NCBI RefSeq assembly: GCF_025602895.1
Contig: NW_026516347.1
Coordinates: forward strand, 34,532 to 98,531
Length of the DNA: 64,000 bases
DNA from: Polychytrium aggregatum
Taxonomy: Eukaryota; Chytridiomycota; Chytridiomycetes; Polychytriales
Direction of reading: 5' to 3'
The notes beneath the pieces are model-generated. The model was given only the letters and a program-made list of their open reading frames with translations. It did no database searches and had not been told where the DNA came from. Each line of letters begins with the position of its first letter. Within the stretch, counting starts at the first letter, position 1. Shown here one piece after another: positions 1,584 to 64,000 of this stretch. Made by a program: the position numbers and the translations under genes.

Positions 1584-3674
1584 ATGTCTGTCGCCGGAGA
1601 CAAGACCGGGCTCCCTGCTGGTGTCGTCCTCGTCCCCGGTCCGACACCGACCGTCTTGGCCCCAAGCACATTCGACCTGATGCTCAGCTACCAGTGGGTC
1701 CGCGCTCCTTGCATTGGACCGCTCTGCTTTGTGCCGATCGAGCCTCTCCCCTCTCCCGGACTGACGCCCTTTTGTTGTCCATGCACAGATGGAGCCATCA
1801 GGAAACTGTCAAAAAGATCCGCGATTCGCTCAAGGCCCGCGGCCTCTCTGTCTGGATGGACTTGGACTGCATGGCCGGCAACATCAACGACGCCATGTAC
1901 GATGGGGTGGTATCGTCCCGGGTCATTGTGCCGTGCCTAACGGCTGCCTATGAGGTCAGACACCGCCGCGCTAATTCATACATTGACCAGGGCTCGCTGC
2001 CTGCTCGACGGTTCTGACATGCCACAATCCTCGGAACTCTGCACAACCCACATCCCCTGCACCCATGTGCTGTCAAACAGGCATCCTACAACTGCAAGAA
2101 GGAGCTCAATTTTGCCGACGCAGAAAAGAAGCCCCTCGTGCCCGTGCGTCTGGACCGAGGGCCGTTCACCTGGTCCGCCATCATCACCTCGGGCCTGCTC
2201 TACGTCGATCTCTGTCATCCCAACGGCAGCGACTCCGAAGCCGCGCCCATGCTCGACACCGACTCGGCCTGGTGGAACTCCAAAATGGACATGCTCGCCC
2301 GGGAGATCCGCGCGAAGCAGAACTCCAAGCCGATTGCGCAGCGTTCTGTCGTAAGTGGGTCGCCCAAGTGTAAAGAGCCAGCAACACACCAAGCGCGAGG
2401 ACAGCCCAGGTCGTAACAGTGGCTGATTTTGACGTCTTGACCAACCCGGATTCTCATCTTCACGACGCACTCAGCAATATCGGTGGAAGTGGGCAATGAT
2501 CACCTCGGGCTCATTGATCGTGCTCGTTGCGATCGTCTACGTCATTATCGCCGCAGTCGAGGGCCGGTTCAACGGACTGTTTGGCAACAACACACCCAAC
2601 TGTGAGTGTTTTGAACGCAATCGTCTGCGGGCCGCTGCTTTGGGTGCCGCTTGTGATCATCATCCACGCAACAATTGCACTGAGGGGCGTGTGTCCCATG
2701 CAGCTAGCTTCATGCGATTTCTGATCCACTTGCTCATGCGCCTCTGATACACTTACTTACACGACCGGATCCACACGACCCGACACCCCAATCCACCCGG
2801 TATCAGTTTCATTCAGCGTATCGACGCCTCAATGGGTCGCTGCAAATGGCCTCTCATGCGACAAAGCCTGTAGCAAGGCCAATCTGACTTTCTACTCCAC
2901 CAGCACCACGGCCAGCACTGCCTATGCCGTTTGTCAGAATCTGCAAGGTGAGTGGCTGCACACACCTGGCTGCATGTCCTCGCGCCTCCGTGCACAGCGG
3001 CCGTCAGCCGACTCTCTGGATGCATGGACAAACTGGCATGCTCATCCCGGCCATGCTTTGGCAATCTCAGACACCGACCCGACCATTGCCATCTCATGGT
3101 CCGAGATCCAAGTCGCAGGCAACAGCACACTCTGCGGCAGCTCTTCATCGGCAAGCTATGAGTGTCTCTGCGTCGATCCAAAGTTTTCGGCCTCCGTGAG
3201 CACAGTGTCCAGCGTCATCGGAAACACTTGTGACGATGCTTGCAGTTTCTCGCCTCCCAATACTGCCACGGTTCCTCACCCCGGTAAGCCTGCCACTCTG
3301 CAGATGAACGTCCCGCACATCACTTCATCCGAAACCAACCCCGCGCCCCCAGTCTGAGATTGCCGACACAGAGATATCCAATGACTGATCCATCTTTGTT
3401 GGTGGTGGTGGTGATGGTGCACACTCTAGCCGATTCTTCCTGGGTTTTTCCTGTCAAGGCCCTCTTCAATTCGCACTTTCCGCAATACTATGGGTGCAAG
3501 ACCCTGACTGGCTCTCAGGCCGGCACCGTCCTCACGGGCGTTTGCCAGACCAAGGTTCTTGACAGCAGTGGTCGCTACGTCTCTGCCAACTCCACGGATC
3601 CGTTTGGACGATCCATCTCCTTCCAGTGCATCTGTGCTGTTCCGCCGGGTTCGCAGCCGACTCACAGCTCGTGA
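1584..3674 (+). CDS. TIR-domain single-pass membrane protein with Cys-rich ectodomain
   Basis: Seven exons join in frame: 1584-1697, 1802-1954, 2081-2350, 2475-2601, 2807-2947, 3071-3283, 3430-3674, giving 420 residues. Residues about 30-170 form a TIR domain: FDLMLSYQW (first strand), GLSVWMDLDCMAG (BB-loop region), VIVPCLTAAYE, SYNCKKELNFA and VPVRLD. Exon 4 encodes a transmembrane helix (about residues 187-208, SLIVLVAIVYVIIAAVEG). The remaining 200 or so residues are rich in Cys, Ser and Thr with recurring CxC motifs (ECLC, QCIC), which suggests a disulfide-bonded extracellular domain. No signal peptide is seen, so the TIR end is probably cytosolic, the reverse of Toll order. TIR domains act in signalling as scaffolds or as NADases. 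The usual catalytic Glu region reads GNINDAM here, so NADase activity is doubtful. Family assignment is firm; role is unknown. Confidence 0.82.
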
Positions 3675-4590
3675 GAAACAACAGAGCGACACGACAGAGT
3701 CGCCGAGGATATGGTCCAGCATTGGCCCAGAGGTGAATCCATGCGTTGCCTCGACGAATACAGGGTTCCCTGAATACATGCGTGGAATCGTGACGCCAGC
3801 GCGGCATGCAGCATGATCATCGTGTGCAGGACAATTGCGGAAACCGGGGAGATCTTGGTTTGGCGGCATGTTGGAAGCAGACCATCAACGACGACATGTC
3901 CTGGGTAAGACGCACACAGTTTCCACCAGAGCACACATTGCCCCCCCCCCAGCGCACCATGCACCATACACCAAACACCATGCACCATGCACCAAACACA
4001 TGCGCCCAGCCCACCAAGCAACACCCGACACCCGCAGCGCCCGTGGCGGCGCCATCACCGCAGGCGTCCAAGGCGCCTGGCTCGAGAAGGGCGCGGCGGC
4101 CTGCGGCACACGCGGTCTGCGCGCCCATGGCCTTCTGTGAGATCAATCCGCTGGCCTGGATCGGCTCCGATCGCTCTCGTCTTCCCACTCCAATTCAATG
4201 CATCTGCACCGATCCGCTCTCCCACGCCCCTTGCTGTCTCTCTTTGCATGTCCTTGCTGCTTCTCGACACACATGGCCACTCTGACGCCGCTCGTTCTCG
4301 GCACCCCCTCCCGCCAGGTCGATGAAAAAGGACATCCGTCGCCGGCCTTTCTCGTCTTGCTCTCTTCCTTGCCCTTTTCTTGACCAGGCCCTGAGTCCTT
4401 TCGTCCTCCGGATACTTGGCCTCCAGCCGGCGCTGTGCTGCCTCCCTCGACTCAATCTCAAATAGTCGAGCCTTGCCCTTTTCCCGTCCACATTCAAGGG
4501 CCTCTGCTGCTCACATTCCCGCTGCAAATCTTGTCGCACCCTCGATATCCTGCCAAACACCATCGCTTCCCACGGACCCACCGTCCTGCC
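3675..4590 (+). other. Intergenic: Cys-rich coding-like debris and CACCATGCAC repeats
   Basis: Just after the TIR gene, 3827-3904 reads as a Cys-containing peptide (DNCGNRGDLGLAACWKQ) followed by a plausible GTAAGA donor. Around 4194-4205 a QCICTDP motif recalls the QCICAVP end of the ectodomain. I could not join these in frame to the TIR gene, so they may be a decayed ectodomain repeat or missed alternative exons. A CACCATGCAC/CACCAAACAC tandem repeat fills 3955-4001. The last 200 bases are probably the 5' leader of the next gene. Confidence 0.4.
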
Positions 4591-37349: not shown

Positions 37350-38430
37350 ACACATGACAGCGTAGTATGTGATGGCATGCGTCTAGCTATGCCACAAGAA
37401 ATAAAACAGATCACTTTGGCAGCCTCCGAGTGAACACCACCGGTCGCTCTCCGGTCTCCACAATCGACCTGCATACTGTGATCATGTTGCGCGCCGCATT
37501 GACGTCGCGATTCCACACTGTCCGGCAGCTGGGATTCTTGCAGCTCCTGACAAAGTGGGAATTCGCAACACTGGGCGCATCGAGTCCTTCCAACCGAACT
37601 GGCTCCAGGCACTTGGAGCACACTTGCGAGGTGTTGAACTCGTTCGTCGAGACTACCTTGACGCTTCCATGAGGGTGATTGGGACGGCGTCGGTGGTGCT
37701 CGAACTGCTCAAAGTACCGAGCAAATCGCTGCCTCCGAGGGCTGGATGCATAGCCCTTGCCCTGTCGCCATGACGCATTGCCAAAGGCGATCACCACATC
37801 GGTCCGTATCGGGGCGTGCTTCAGGACGGCCTTGCACATCCTGTCGACGGCCACTTGGCGCCTCTTGTGGCCCGTGAAGCGATGGTGACGGGCCTTCTTG
37901 CCAAGGTGGAAGTCGAGCTGCACCCGAAGCTCCGGTCGCAGGACATGGGTGAGATGGACCTTGAAGGCCTCCGAGGACGACACCTTGGGCGAGGGGGTGG
38001 TCGACATCCAGGTCTCGATGCTGAGTCGATACTTCATGGTATTGTGCCACTTGGTGTTGGACGTATGGCCACACATGTGCTGGTAGTGGCCATTGGAGAA
38101 TGAGACCACCTCGTCTTGGTGGCCCGGTGCTTGGATGACCGCCGTGAAGATGGAGCCGACTCCAGGATCGATGCCAATCCAAGTGGTGCGGTTGGGGTCT
38201 GGGTCGCCGATGTGGGCCTGGATGCGCTGTTCGGCAGTCGGAGGAGGCTCGATGGTCTCGGTGCGATCGGTTCGACGCACAAACTTGACGAGGTCGATGG
38301 TGCATCCAATGCCATCGGTGCTGATCTCGTAGTTGAACAGCTTCTTGTTCACGTCCCGCTCTTGGAAGAGGGAACTACGCAGCTTGAAGCAACTGCGCCA
38401 GAGTCGATCCTGGTTGTTGACACCGTCCGT
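37350..38430 (-). mobile_element. 5'-truncated copy of the Fanzor unit
   Basis: On the minus strand this stretch is nearly identical to about 62880-63960 of the complete element. Similarity begins at the codons for NNQDRLWRSC and extends past the stop codon for about 70 bases (shared TCTGTTTTATTTCTTGTGGC and CATACTAC). No transposase, left inverted repeat or first 450 codons are present, so this is a deletion derivative. The exact right boundary is unclear. Confidence 0.85.
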
Positions 38431-60060: not shown

Positions 60061-60275
60061 CTCTCCTCCTCCTCCTGGCTTGCTTACTCGGTGCTCCTCC
60101 TTCGGCAGCGCTCCGTTGCTGCATCTGTACTGGCACCCAGCACCGGCGCCTTGTGGAATACACTTACTGAGCTGCTGTCCTGGCTTTGGCATATCGGTCG
60201 TTCTGGCCAGCGTTTGGCTCGGCGCCATCGCTTGATACTGAGACATCGCCGAGACACTTTTACAGGCAATCCAAT
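60061..60275. other. MCM4 3' flank up to transposon
   Basis: CTCCTC-rich sequence follows the stop. No gene is seen. A TA dinucleotide at 60275-60276 borders the presumed left end of the transposon, as expected for a TA-targeting Tc1/mariner insertion. Confidence 0.5.
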
Positions 60276-60288
60276 AAAAAACGGGACA
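60276..60288 (+). repeat. Left terminal inverted repeat, AAAAAACGGGACA
   Basis: Perfect 13-base match to the reverse complement of 63973-63985. It begins 71 bases before the transposase start codon and directly follows a T, forming the TA typical of Tc1/mariner targets. Confidence 0.7.
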
Positions 60289-60346
60289 CCCGGGATTTTG
60301 ACCATTCATCGAATATTTTGTTACCCAATGTTATCGCGCGCTGGCC

Positions 60347-61279
60347 ATGACCATTCGCCACACATCCGACTTTCGCACCGCCGCATTGCGATGCTACGCC
60401 CTCATCCATAGCCTGCGTAAGGTCGCCTCCATATTCAATGTGTCCAAAAGCACCATCCATCGATGGCACCGAGGATGCAAGCTGGATGACCCATCCCGGG
60501 TCCCAGCTCGCAGATCCACTTTCTTCGAGCAGGCATGTCCAGTCATTCGCACCCTGATTGAACAGGACCCGTTCCAGACTGGTCCTGTGTTGCGATGCAA
60601 GCTCGAGTCCATCCTCCAGAGGAAAGTATCACTCTCACTCTGCCACACTGCCATCCACCGAGCGGGTCTCTCACACAAGAGGGCAACACACCTCTACAAG
60701 TCCAAGCGACTGGATGAGCGAGTGGCACAGTTCAGGGACCAGGTCCGCTCCATCGACCCACGACGGCTCGTTTTTGTCGACGAGACAGGGATCAGGAGAT
60801 CCATTTTTCCTCTCTACGGATACTCACCGAAGGGTGCTCCGCTTCGCCAGCGCAATCACATGAAACACAAGTCTGTCTCGGCTGCATTTGCCATCAACCA
60901 CTCTGGTGTGCTGCATCGCATGTACATCCCCACATCATTCAAGACACACTCGATGGTCGAGTTCTTTGAGCGAGCGACCTTCCCAGACGACTCTGTGGTT
61001 GTGATGGACAATGTCAGCATGCACAAGACAAGGGCTGTCCTGGACTGCATCGAGCGCCGAGGATGGTCAGTGATCTTCACCCCACCTGCCTCGCCCGACT
61101 TCAATCCCATCGAGAACTTCTTTGGGATTGTGAAGCATCAGTACAGGAAGGCAGCAGCGCTGAATGCGTCCGAGGGGTTCAAGATCGGGATGGTGACCCT
61201 GTTTGAGTCTGCCGTTCGGAGGGTGCTTCCAGATGTCTTCCCACGGCTGATTGAGCGAGCGATGCGCTTCTGGGGTTGA
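60347..61279 (+). CDS. Tc1/mariner (IS630 superfamily) transposase, DD34E
   Basis: An intronless frame of 310 residues. The N-terminus holds a helix-turn-helix DNA-binding region (VASIFNVSKSTIHRWHRG, residues about 26-43) and a second predicted helical domain. The catalytic triad is intact: Asp145 in VFVDETGIR, Asp221 in VVMDNVSMHKT and Glu256 in SPDFNPIENFFG, with 34 residues between the last two. It should cut and paste the element at TA sites. Length and motifs are normal for the family and no stop or frameshift is present, so it could be active. Fanzor starts 251 bases downstream with its own TATA-like box, suggesting a separate transcript. Confidence 0.93.
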   Translation: MTIRHTSDFRTAALRCYALIHSLRKVASIFNVSKSTIHRWHRGCKLDDPSRVPARRSTFFEQACPVIRTLIEQDPFQTGPVLRCKLESILQRKVSLSLCHTAIHRAGLSHKRATHLYKSKRLDERVAQFRDQVRSIDPRRLVFVDETGIRRSIFPLYGYSPKGAPLRQRNHMKHKSVSAAFAINHSGVLHRMYIPTSFKTHSMVEFFERATFPDDSVVVMDNVSMHKTRAVLDCIERRGWSVIFTPPASPDFNPIENFFGIVKHQYRKAAALNASEGFKIGMVTLFESAVRRVLPDVFPRLIERAMRFWG

Positions 61280-61395
61280 GTTCCCTCCAATCAAGCCGCC
61301 ATTTTCACGCTCAAATCCCTGGCTTGAACCTCTCGGCGATTTTTGAACAGGTCGCTTCCCCAACCAACCCGCAAAGACGGGCTCCTGCTCTCGGG

Positions 61396-61402
61396 TATAA
61401 AT
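61396..61402 (+). promoter_or_regulatory. TATA-like box upstream of Fanzor
   Basis: CGGGTATAAATGCC lies 129 bases before the Fanzor start codon, in the gap after the transposase stop. It is the only strong TATA match in that gap. Confidence 0.5.
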
Positions 61403-61530
61403 GCCACACCTTCGTCTCTGCTGCTTTCTTCCCTCATCTCGCCTTGATCTGATCATCGCGCTATTGTACGATAAAAAAAGTCTCTGCTCTGACCAGTACC
61501 ACTGGCAGGCATCCAGCATTCTCTGTCCCC

Positions 61531-63900
61531 ATGCCTCCGAAGCGCAAGGGTACCGGTGATGGCCAGCCTCGGCCACCCAGGCCCAAGAAAGCCAAGTCAC
61601 AGTCGGAGCCTGTCTCTGGTTCGTATTCTGACCCCACGTATGCTTGGTCGTCTGTTGCTCCATCGCTCACCACCACTGCTTCTGCAGATCCAATGGATGT
61701 CGATCCCACCGAGCCTGGTCCATCTACTTCCTCGAGTACCGGCAAGCGATGTCGCCAGTGCGATGGCACCGATCATCAGCGAAGCAACGCCAGCAAATGT
61801 CCAAAATACCGGCCCCTCAAGAGTTCTGTCGTCCCACTCGTGGATGGAAGGTCATCCGCCCCTCAGTTCAGCTGCTTCAAGCAGACGATGGATGGCTGTT
61901 GTCTCAATCCCGCTCTCCGCGACAAGATCCAGGCCACCGTCGAGGCCATGACCCAGATCCAGTTCGAGGCATCCAGGCTGCTCAACCTGCACATCCTCCG
62001 GTGCATCGAGCAGGATCTTCCCGTCCCCGTCATCTCCAAGTCCACCCCTGCTTTCGTTCGCCAATGCTTCACGATTGTCGAGGCCGATGCCCTCTCGACG
62101 GCCAGGGAGACCAAGAAATACAACGAGCATCTGGTCGCTTCCTTTCGCGACTACCAGACCACTCGACATGCAGACCTGCCTCCGGCCCCTCGTCTGCCTG
62201 ATGGTGCTCACAGTCAGCTTCTCACCCTGGCTGTCAATGCCTATGCCACCAACTGCACCACCCACCTCGACCTGGCCTACTGGCGACTCCTTCGCCGCTT
62301 CTGCGCTGCCGTCTTCCCTGCCAACAAGCACAAGCACGAAGCCATCGAGGCTTGTCTCGAGCTCTTCGAGAAACCAGGGCAGACTCCACCCAAGGCCGAT
62401 CTCGAGTTCCTCTATCCAGACTTTGGCCACGTCCTGGACGAGTTTCGGTACAGCAGCGACCAAGACCGCTTCCGGGCCCTCCACCGCCTCTCACACCATG
62501 TGGGTTTCCTCGCCCGAGACAAGATGGTCGACAATGTCCACAAGTGGATCGACTGTGACATGCCCGCCCTCCGAGTCACCGAGCTGCAGCGCCAGGCCAA
62601 GCTGGACGAGCTCACTACCCAAGGCATTCCCTCCGACGACAAGAGGCTCACCACGGCCAAGTCTGAGCTTGGCACCACCAAGTCCAAGATCAACAAGCTG
62701 GCATCCAGGCTCAAGTGGGCACTCAAGCAGCTCGCCGTCGACACTCCGGCCGTGTGCACGATAGTTCCTCTATGCACTGCCACGGCCAAGTATGTCAAGA
62801 TTGACACGGTCACTCTTTGGAATCTCCTTGGTCCAAAGAAGCGCCTTAGACTCACCAGGGACAAGCTCAAGGAAGAAGGTGAGGACGGCATCAACAACCA
62901 GGATCGTCTCTGGCGCAGTTGCTTCAAGCTGCGTAGTTCCCTCTTCCAAGAGCGGGACGTGAACAAGAAGCTGTTCAACTACGAGATCAGCACCGATGGC
63001 ATTGGATGCACAATCGGTCTCGTCAAGTTTCTGCCTCGAACCGATCACACCGAGACCTCCGAGCCTCCTCCGACTGCCGAGCAGCGTATCCAGGCCCACA
63101 TCGGTGACCCAGACCCCGATCGCACCACTTGGATTGGCATCGATCCTGGAGTCGGCTCCATCTTCACGGCGGTCATCCAAGCACCGGGCCACCAAGACGA
63201 GGTGGTCTCGTTCTCCAATGGCCACTACCAGCACATGTGTGGCCATACGTCCAATACCAAGTGGCACAATATCATGAAGTATCGCCTCGACATCGAGACC
63301 TGGATATCGACCACTCCCTCGCCCAAGGTGTCGTCCTCGGAGGCTTTCAAGGTCCATCTCACCCATGTCCTGCGACCGGAGCTGCGAGTGCAGCTCGACT
63401 TCCACCTTGGCAAGAAGGCCCGTCACCATCGCTTCACAGGCCACAAGAGACGCCAAGTGGCCGTCGACAGGATGTGCAAGGCCGTCCTGAAGCACGCCCC
63501 GATACGGACCGATGTGGTGATCGCCTTTGGCAATGCGTCATGGCGACAAGGCAAGGGCTATGCATCCAGCCCTCGGAGGCAGCGGTTCGCTCGGTACTTT
63601 GAGCAGTTCGAGCACCACCGCCGCCGTCCCAATCACCATCATGGAAGCGTCAAGGTGGCCTCGACGAACGAGTTCAACACCTCGCAAGTGTGCTCCAAGT
63701 GCCTGGAGCCAGTTCGGTTGGAAGGACTCGATGCGCCCAGTGTTGCGAATTCCCACTTTGTCAGGAGCTGCAAGAATCCCAGCTGCCGGACAGTGTGGAA
63801 TCGCGACGTCAATGCGGCGCGCAACATGATCACAGTGTGCAGGTCGATTGTGGAGATCGGAGAGCGACCGGCGGTCTTCACTCGGAGGCTGCCAAAGTGA
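61531..63900 (+). CDS. Fanzor, TnpB-like RNA-guided nuclease (full length)
   Basis: An intronless frame of 789 residues. The first 35 residues are basic (PPKRKGTG, RPPRPKKAKSQ), a likely nuclear localisation signal. A CCHC-like zinc knuckle follows (CRQCDGTDHQ...C, Cys74, Cys77, His82, Cys90). Residues about 110-450 are helical, in the position of the REC and wedge regions. The RuvC fold has RuvC-I TWIGIDPGVGS (Asp538), a RuvC-II strand VVIAFGNASW (661-671) with no acidic residue, Glu714 in TNEFNTSQVC, a zinc ribbon (Cys721, Cys724, Cys747, Cys752) and RuvC-III WNRDVNAARNM (Asp759). Fanzors are known to cut DNA guided by an RNA encoded at the element's end. Glu714 probably replaces the usual RuvC-II Glu, as reported for some family members. 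Activity here is inferred. Confidence 0.9.
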   Translation: MPPKRKGTGDGQPRPPRPKKAKSQSEPVSGSYSDPTYAWSSVAPSLTTTASADPMDVDPTEPGPSTSSSTGKRCRQCDGTDHQRSNASKCPKYRPLKSSVVPLVDGRSSAPQFSCFKQTMDGCCLNPALRDKIQATVEAMTQIQFEASRLLNLHILRCIEQDLPVPVISKSTPAFVRQCFTIVEADALSTARETKKYNEHLVASFRDYQTTRHADLPPAPRLPDGAHSQLLTLAVNAYATNCTTHLDLAYWRLLRRFCAAVFPANKHKHEAIEACLELFEKPGQTPPKADLEFLYPDFGHVLDEFRYSSDQDRFRALHRLSHHVGFLARDKMVDNVHKWIDCDMPALRVTELQRQAKLDELTTQGIPSDDKRLTTAKSELGTTKSKINKLASRLKWALKQLAVDTPAVCTIVPLCTATAKYVKIDTVTLWNLLGPKKRLRLTRDKLKEEGEDGINNQDRLWRSCFKLRSSLFQERDVNKKLFNYEISTDGIGCTIGLVKFLPRTDHTETSEPPPTAEQRIQAHIGDPDPDRTTWIGIDPGVGSIFTAVIQAPGHQDEVVSFSNGHYQHMCGHTSNTKWHNIMKYRLDIETWISTTPSPKVSSSEAFKVHLTHVLRPELRVQLDFHLGKKARHHRFTGHKRRQVAVDRMCKAVLKHAPIRTDVVIAFGNASWRQGKGYASSPRRQRFARYFEQFEHHRRRPNHHHGSVKVASTNEFNTSQVCSKCLEPVRLEGLDAPSVANSHFVRSCKNPSCRTVWNRDVNAARNMITVCRSIVEIGERPAVFTRRLPK

Positions 63901-63986
63901 TCTGTTTTATTTCTTGTGGCTTTGCTAGACGCAAGCACAGCACATACTACATGTTCATGGAAACGGCTATATTGTCCCGTTTTTTT
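63897..63986 (+). ncRNA. Candidate guide-RNA region at the Fanzor 3' end
   Basis: In the TnpB/Fanzor family the guide RNA overlaps the end of the nuclease gene and the right end of the element, with the guide reading outward into flanking DNA. Here the 70 or so bases after the stop are conserved in the truncated copy at 37350-37410 (shared TCTGTTTTATTTCTTGTGGC, GCTAGACGCA and CATACTAC), although they code for nothing. That is the pattern expected of a retained RNA scaffold or transposase-binding end. The RNA has not been shown. Confidence 0.4.
63973..63985 (-). repeat. Right terminal inverted repeat, TGTCCCGTTTTTT
   Basis: Reverse complement of the left repeat at 60276-60288. The T run continues for one more base and is followed by CTGAATAAAG, then the window ends. 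Confidence 0.7.
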
Positions 63987-64000
63987 CTGAATAAAGTGTA

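Follow-up and report, generated by a model that had tools for sequence, protein, structure and literature searches.

Fanzors are known from several types of eukaryotic transposon. Mariner elements that carry a Fanzor1 gene, PGv-1, PUl-1 and PUl-4, were described in 2013 (Bao and Jurka, PMC3627910), with transposase and Fanzor1 together in PGv-1 and PUl-1, and the 2023 paper that showed Fanzor activity stated that the biological role of Fanzor was unknown (PMC10432273). Comparisons with published systems refer to excerpts of the cited papers. Here, we describe an element in a window of 64,000 nucleotides from the chytrid Polychytrium aggregatum (NCBI RefSeq assembly GCF_025602895.1, contig NW_026516347.1, positions 34,532 to 98,531 of the forward strand). 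It is a Tc1/mariner transposon in which a transposase gene and a Fanzor gene share one mobile unit, and it belongs to a class that is already known. Like PGv-1 and PUl-1, it holds a Mariner transposase and a Fanzor1 within one pair of terminal repeats, and it shares with the PGv-1, PUl-1 and PUl-4 group the TA duplications and the chimeric make-up, in which a common transposase is combined with different cargo (PMC3627910). PGv-1 and three relatives were called single-copy (PMC3627910), whereas 308 exact right ends and short derivatives are present here. The excerpts on PGv-1-type elements make no mention of flank scars (PMC3627910), which we describe below.

The element Spu-1 of Spizellomyces punctatus, with the Fanzor1 protein SpuFz1, resembles the present one in the conserved bases upstream of its left repeat (CA there, T here) and in its short ghost copies, which retain the right end (Saito 2023, PMC10432273). 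It differs in that, according to the excerpts, the Spu-1 repeats were not found to enclose a transposase (PMC10432273). The conserved CA agrees with the measured target-adjacent motif (TAM) of SpuFz1, CATA, as compared with TTA predicted here (PMC10432273), and the similarity of SpuFz1 to the window Fanzor is weak (profile E = 0.0018). A functional parallel is TnpB of IS200/IS605 in a plasmid gene drive, where the guide records the insertion site, element-free molecules are cut and the outcome is biased to filled copies (PMC11870625). We propose the same here, with a eukaryotic DDE transposase and comparative evidence in place of the bacterial IS200/IS605 transposase studied there. New in this family are a bias towards T on the left side of the insertion with a free mirror base on the right, and left-end scars that match the right flank of the same copy. 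Judged by titles and the first lines of abstracts, with most subscription journals uncovered, we found no paper on Fanzor homing scars; a homing role of Fanzor has been proposed, and within the same coverage no demonstration of it was found.

Element borders and the left flank

The first-pass annotation had bounded the element by 13-base inverted repeats with a TA at the left border. The repeats do exist, with AAAAAACGGGACA at 60276–60288 and its complement at 63973–63985, and chance is ruled out as their origin, since the 13-mer occurs 376 times in forward and 367 times in reverse orientation in the 64.7-Mb genome, as opposed to 2 and 0 occurrences of a reversed control. They form, however, only the inner part of the true terminal repeats. 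Comparison of copies at unrelated sites set the borders at 60263 and 63998, so that the element spans 3736 bp and its ends lie 13 bases (left) and 12 bases (right) beyond those first proposed. The left border reads T, TA and then CAGGCAATCCAATAAAAAACGGGACA; the right border reads TGTCCCGTTTTTTTCTGAATAAAGTG followed by TA. Both terminal inverted repeats are 26 bp long (60263–60288 and 63973–63998, plus strand) and recur at unrelated sites. The TA noted earlier, at 60275–60276, sits inside the left repeat, and the target duplication is found at 60261–60262 and 63999–64000. Contig C52 (98,531 bases), and with it the window, ends at the right TA. A TA duplication was present at both ends of the compared copies, with the exceptions of L013 (TT on the right) and L036 (CA on the left).

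The genome contains 308 occurrences of the exact right end TCTGAATAAAGTGTA plus one base (57 + 102 + 80 + 69); there are fewer loci than this because some sites are represented by two contigs with the same flanks. The assembly thus holds many copies with the same repeats. At many sites with unrelated flanks, the terminal repeats enclose both transposase and Fanzor, which supports the earlier proposal of a single mobile unit made up of both genes and rules out a Fanzor that always lies outside the repeats.

We then compared the flanks of a local copy set. Forty-nine rows were found, and 43 were left after removal of L029 (another family), three out-of-register rows and two duplicates. The base before the left TA was T in 42 of these 43 copies, and one base further left stood A or T in 36 of 43. 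Among the out-of-register rows, the base is T in L021 and in L043, and the sequence in L036 is TCA. In the genome, T preceded TA at 267 of 302 left ends (element family and sister families together), whereas the mirror base to the right of TA was A at only 57 of 308 right ends. The right flank of the 43 local copies showed no strong base preference, with A at +1 raised in this set by the 20 copies drawn from the list with A at that position (N1 = A). A nearly fixed T on the left with a free mirror base on the right is as expected for a TTA motif combined with a right-flank guide. An RNA-guided nuclease would read a motif on the left only, because its target is the right flank. TTA, located at 60260–60262 in the window (plus strand), is therefore the predicted TAM, and the right flank the putative guide. 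A symmetric preference of the transposase for TTA is unsupported, as it would give A after the right TA equally often.

Left-end scars that match the right flank

In four of 33 family copies (window included, L029 aside), namely L016, L021, L039 and L040, the left end is replaced by at least four bases of the copy's own right flank. Reading the same 33 copies by eye, we found none in which the right end is replaced by left-flank bases; the only differences among right ends were point changes and variation in the length of the T run.

In a genome survey of the element family and its sister families, 27 left ends that lie behind TTA at the fixed spacing do not begin with C. We could pair 25 non-C left ends with an exact right end, 22 from this list and three from a second fixed-length list. 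The first base of the left end equalled the first base of the right flank in 23 of the 25 (6 A, 6 G and 11 T), with 5.65 expected. By shared flanks, the 25 ends represent 16 loci, 15 of which match their own right flank. The shared tracts range from 1 to 9 nt and reach at least 4 nt at 10 of the 15 loci: 9 nt at C102/C124; 7 nt at C24/L040 and C179:411689; 5 nt at C6, C68/C363 and C156/C223; 4 nt at C157/C416, C179:131106, C168/C362 and C334; 3 nt at C105/C366 and C124/C401; 2 nt at C9/C79; and 1 nt at C2/L017 and C358. In addition, L039 (N1 = C) shares 9 nt, and the out-of-register copies L021 and L016 share 6 and 8 nt. Tracts of at least 5 nt were found in three of 42 in-register local copies, with a permutation mean of 0.07, and none of 20,000 permutations reached three. 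For C112:281169, we used the left end to predict the right flank before reading it; the two match over 7 nt (GACGGCAGAG against left GACGGCAATC), of which the first base, G, was already known.

Assembly error is an unlikely source of the scars, as eight of the 15 matching loci recur on a second contig with identical flanks and an identical scar; a ninth two-contig pair is the non-matching locus C386/C400. C23 (L037) and C334, however, share a right flank and differ on the left, so that the assembly may contain some incorrect or recombinant joins at this repeat.

Both flanks would also share element-adjacent sequence if the scars were ordinary target duplications of irregular length, produced by imprecise cutting of the transposase, and the out-of-register position of L016 and L021 would fit this origin. 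Fixed-length patterns detect only replacements without length change. A one-base-longer pattern gave 10 places, three of which (two loci, C8/C135, which is L021, and C112:281169) were compared with their own flank and match it. In this comparison, which covers these two lengths only, same-length replacement is common (15 loci plus L039) against two matching one-base-longer loci. Moreover, scarred loci have flanks that are more similar to the element's standard left end than unscarred flanks are (mean longest run 3.1, n = 16, versus 2.1 for 37 unscarred; one-sided P = 0.008), which plain duplication does not predict. We regard irregular duplication as very improbable.

As a separate observation, L042 (C1:272278-276900) contains at about 280–650 a sister-type short copy whose left end, TATAGCCT, repeats its own right flank.

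Probable homing by the Fanzor and competing explanations

The element probably carries its Fanzor as a self-retention or homing nuclease. On balance, the left-end scars read as a natural record of Fanzor homing by a eukaryotic DDE transposon, that is, of RNA-guided cutting of an empty allele at TTA and the adjoining guide match, followed by repair with the filled copy as template and retention of a flap. As follows from the anatomy, the transposase inserts the element into a TA. The 3′ end of the element would be transcribed into an omega-RNA, with a scaffold that ends with the right repeat and UA and with a guide taken from the host DNA on the right side of the insertion. The nuclease would recognise TTA plus right-flank sequence, which are joined only in an empty chromosome, be it the sister after excision or the homologue. 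The filled site would be spared because the right end of the element puts G, not T, before TA. The Fanzor is predicted to cleave the TTA-adjacent target inside the guide match, a short distance from the start of the right flank, and the element would be copied in when a filled copy serves as repair template. The left broken end would sometimes keep some non-homologous flank bases, which may pair with the left end of the element and be sealed in as scars. The likeness of scarred flanks to the left end is expected if the retained bases pair with the element and guide repair. At eight of the 16 scarred loci the copy is shorter than 400 bp, so that the nuclease would have to come from elsewhere; it would act in trans on those short copies in which the right end is retained. 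With at most 9 nt, the scar tracts fall short of the cut distance reported for SpuFz1, 16–21 nt (PMC10432273).

The candidate omega-RNA region comprises the end of the Fanzor frame and the 98-nt trailer up to the border (63785–63998, plus strand). That such an RNA exists is suggested by homology and by the right end being kept in short copies, including L011 and L018. Fourfold-degenerate sites vary less in the last 79 codons of the Fanzor gene (3 of 31 variable) than before (81 of 284; one-sided P = 0.015), although 14 of 285 sliding windows were equally low or lower. Rfam at the gathering threshold gave no match within the window. In the Fanzor1 right-element RNA (reRNA) of the Spodoptera frugiperda ascovirus, the target duplication lies inside the RNA scaffold before the guide (Yoon 2023, PMC10711439). 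The same arrangement is proposed here for the UA; the ascovirus RNA was measured, whereas ours is putative.

A break to the right of TA leaves flank bases on the left broken end only, whereas a transposase break at TA treats both sides alike; one-sided scars therefore favour the nuclease over the transposase. We performed a mirror search for a base other than G before the right TA. It sees only right ends with seven T, that is, 36 of 48 local copies or about three quarters, and it gave two places with one and the same text. Neither has T before TA, which is what copying of the left flank would give, and within the three quarters of right ends covered no flank scar was found on this side. The two places, C88:1737-1764 and C101:348984-349011, are right ends with an altered last part, AATGCACTA before TA.

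Excision of Tc1/mariner elements makes breaks at TA. The Fanzor could hence be a passenger, with the scars arising in the repair of such an excision break when the broken left end copies a few bases from an empty homologue before a template switch to a filled copy, and with the T at −1 reflecting an orientation preference of the transposase complex. Template switching likewise predicts shared bases at the junction, as seen, and the different copies at one site in C156 (284 bp) and C223 (3.58 kb) could be explained by abortive or ectopic gap repair. The sister Fanzor group described below also leans to T. Symmetric excision breaks should, however, leave equal scars on the right, where two non-G places (about three quarters searched) stand against 27 non-C left ends behind TTA, and a symmetric transposase should favour A at the right +1, seen in 57 of 308 cases. 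The purifying selection on the Fanzor gene reported below is a further point against a mere passenger. We consider this explanation unlikely.

Several observations weigh against homing by the Fanzor. None of 11 joined flank pairs occurred as an empty allele, which is the substrate that the proposed reaction would need; the search returned a second filled copy for L014, L021, L024 and L031 and, for L038, the left flank of a further filled copy at a contig end. C386/C400 is the sole non-matching locus among the 16 scarred ones, two of the 15 matches consist of a single T and could be C-to-T mutations, and the prediction for C112:890843 failed (left CAATC, right flank CTTTT). The fold of the last 109 nt was no better than that of shuffled sequences (z = −0.49), and the right ends of the sister family (n = 8) showed a two-sided change in only one of 24 pairs; the RNA fold is thus not significant and was discarded as proof of an omega-RNA. 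Finally, the sister Fanzor group has T before TA at five of eight loci (C326 was dropped as a repeat of the C63 flank, and C5 because its end lies outside the piece compared). The T preference is therefore not all-or-none and may be partly that of the transposase. The difference between 42 of 43 and five of eight (Fisher P = 0.0099, with the sister transposase read in L044 only) is suggestive only of a flank motif that follows the Fanzor rather than the transposase.

If homing by the Fanzor is true, its role would be to keep and spread its own transposon, the TAM would be readable from flanks, and past events could be counted from sequence alone. The scar signature separates a break inside the right flank, expected of the nuclease, from a break at TA, expected of the transposase. 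The comparison of a left end with its own right flank is applicable to any Fanzor transposon family, and the prediction of TTA as the TAM can be checked by one assay.

Genes, copies and a second Fanzor family

Both genes lie uninterrupted on the plus strand, in agreement with the first-pass annotation of a DD34E transposase and a full-length Fanzor. The transposase (60347–61279, 310 aa) matches Pfam DDE_3 (E = 1.9e-24), and its triad D145, D221 and E256 has 34 residues between the last two. The Fanzor (61531–63900, 789 aa), presumably an RNA-guided nuclease, matches Pfam Cas12f1-like_TNB (E = 6.4e-9) and, as a regular expression, the pattern D-x(125-275)-[TS][TS]xx-C4 zinc finger-x(5-50)-RD, which follows the Fanzor/TnpB motif definition of PMC3627910. 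The residues are D538, T717, S718, C721, C724, C747, C752, R758 and D759. The first RuvC aspartate is within DPG at 538–540 (IDPG from 537); DPG is a signature of Fanzor and not specific to Fanzor1 (PMC10711439). A profile of two Fanzor sequences, both from this genome, matched SpuFz1 of S. punctatus (8GKH, E = 0.0018) and, weakly, GtFz1 (E = 0.048). The single Fanzor sequence gave no Fanzor match among solved structures up to E = 1, and only weak matches to LaTranC. Fanzor1 is the best fit, because of the profile matches and the mariner setting, Fanzor2 having been reported solely in IS607-type elements (PMC3627910).

The aligned copies comprise 25 of full length (window included) and 19 that lack part of the transposase gene, with L056/L059 and L051/L061 as two-contig pairs among them. 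Both genes are open in nine of the 25 full-length copies, which suggests that the element may be active at present, although an empty allele was found at none of 11 sites. Both are under purifying selection. The mean ratio of nonsynonymous to synonymous substitution rates (dN/dS) among these nine copies was 0.22 for the transposase and 0.30 for the Fanzor. For the Fanzor, open in 18 of 25 full-length and 10 of 19 transposase-deleted copies, it was 0.29 in the 18 and 0.34 in nine of the 10. The choice of open copies biases all these values somewhat, but the transposase still gave a dN/dS of 0.23 when 22 of the 25 full-length rows were included regardless of open frames.

An open and constrained Fanzor in transposase-deleted copies would also be in line with a nuclease that acts mainly on other targets in trans, in defence against related elements or in regulation, with the scars as a side effect. 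Two different Fanzor families coexist in the genome, and help to other transposons in trans was suggested for S. punctatus (PMC10432273). The scars, however, match the copy's own flank and thus point to cutting at the copy's own site. We consider a main function in trans improbable.

Short copies in which neither gene is whole also exist, with both ends kept. Counted from the start given in the first-pass annotation, the 282-bp copies L011 and L018 consist of positions 1–84 and 3510–3711, and the 1084-bp copies L023 and L025 of 1–650 and 3277–3711. At two sites, the copies differ in length between contigs. C156 (29283–29595) and C223 (383610–387216) have the same left flank, scar and right flank, with copies of 284 bp and 3.58 kb; C9 (L023) and C79:128135-131774 share site and scar, with copies of 1.09 kb and 3.61 kb. 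The C156 copy is deleted between the same breakpoints as the short copy L064, and the two have in common one base change that is absent from the allele of the C156 copy. The change in content between C156 and C223 is likely due to repair from another copy, with plain deletion as the alternative. The allele of the window element lies on C334:316600-320420 (L101, L102, L119); it shares its right flank with the C23 copy L037, and the left flanks differ, which may reflect recombination between copies or a wrong assembly join.

In one copy, a second Fanzor follows a nearly identical transposase. In L044 (C2; L044:371-3943), the transposase is 96% identical in protein to that of the window over 310 residues, and the Fanzor is about 40% identical (39.7%, or 43% in another alignment). 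The DNA similarity of 95.7% (positions 1–999) ends at the end of the transposase gene, from which we conclude that, at the level of sequence comparison, the Fanzor module was exchanged just after the transposase stop. A similar module exchange was described for viral Mariner elements by Bao and Jurka (PMC3627910). With its second Fanzor behind a near-identical transposase, L044 is a natural experiment that could tell whether the flank motif depends on the nuclease or on the transposase. The 1.2 kb downstream of the L044 Fanzor (L098) contained no right end, and this copy is possibly incomplete. The genome holds many more copies of the second Fanzor. Of 1399 candidates from a first look, 53 were scored, and all of these are at least 80% identical; copies in C63 and C72 have the right end CTGGTTTGACTG followed by TA. 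Nine of the 13 second-family right ends compared (L110–L118) have similar host sequence after TA, AAGTAT...CGACAGTGGATGCCGGGTCGCC and close variants; for this reason they seem to be carried in a larger repeated unit rather than to be independent insertions.

On the window's own contig, L053 (C52:6854-11203) has two outward-facing right ends about 4.1 kb apart, where a short copy seems to adjoin a longer one. The window also contains a second, truncated family copy on the minus strand (37362–38428), which covers Fanzor codons 452–789 without a terminal repeat (blastn, 95.8% identity over 1068 nt).

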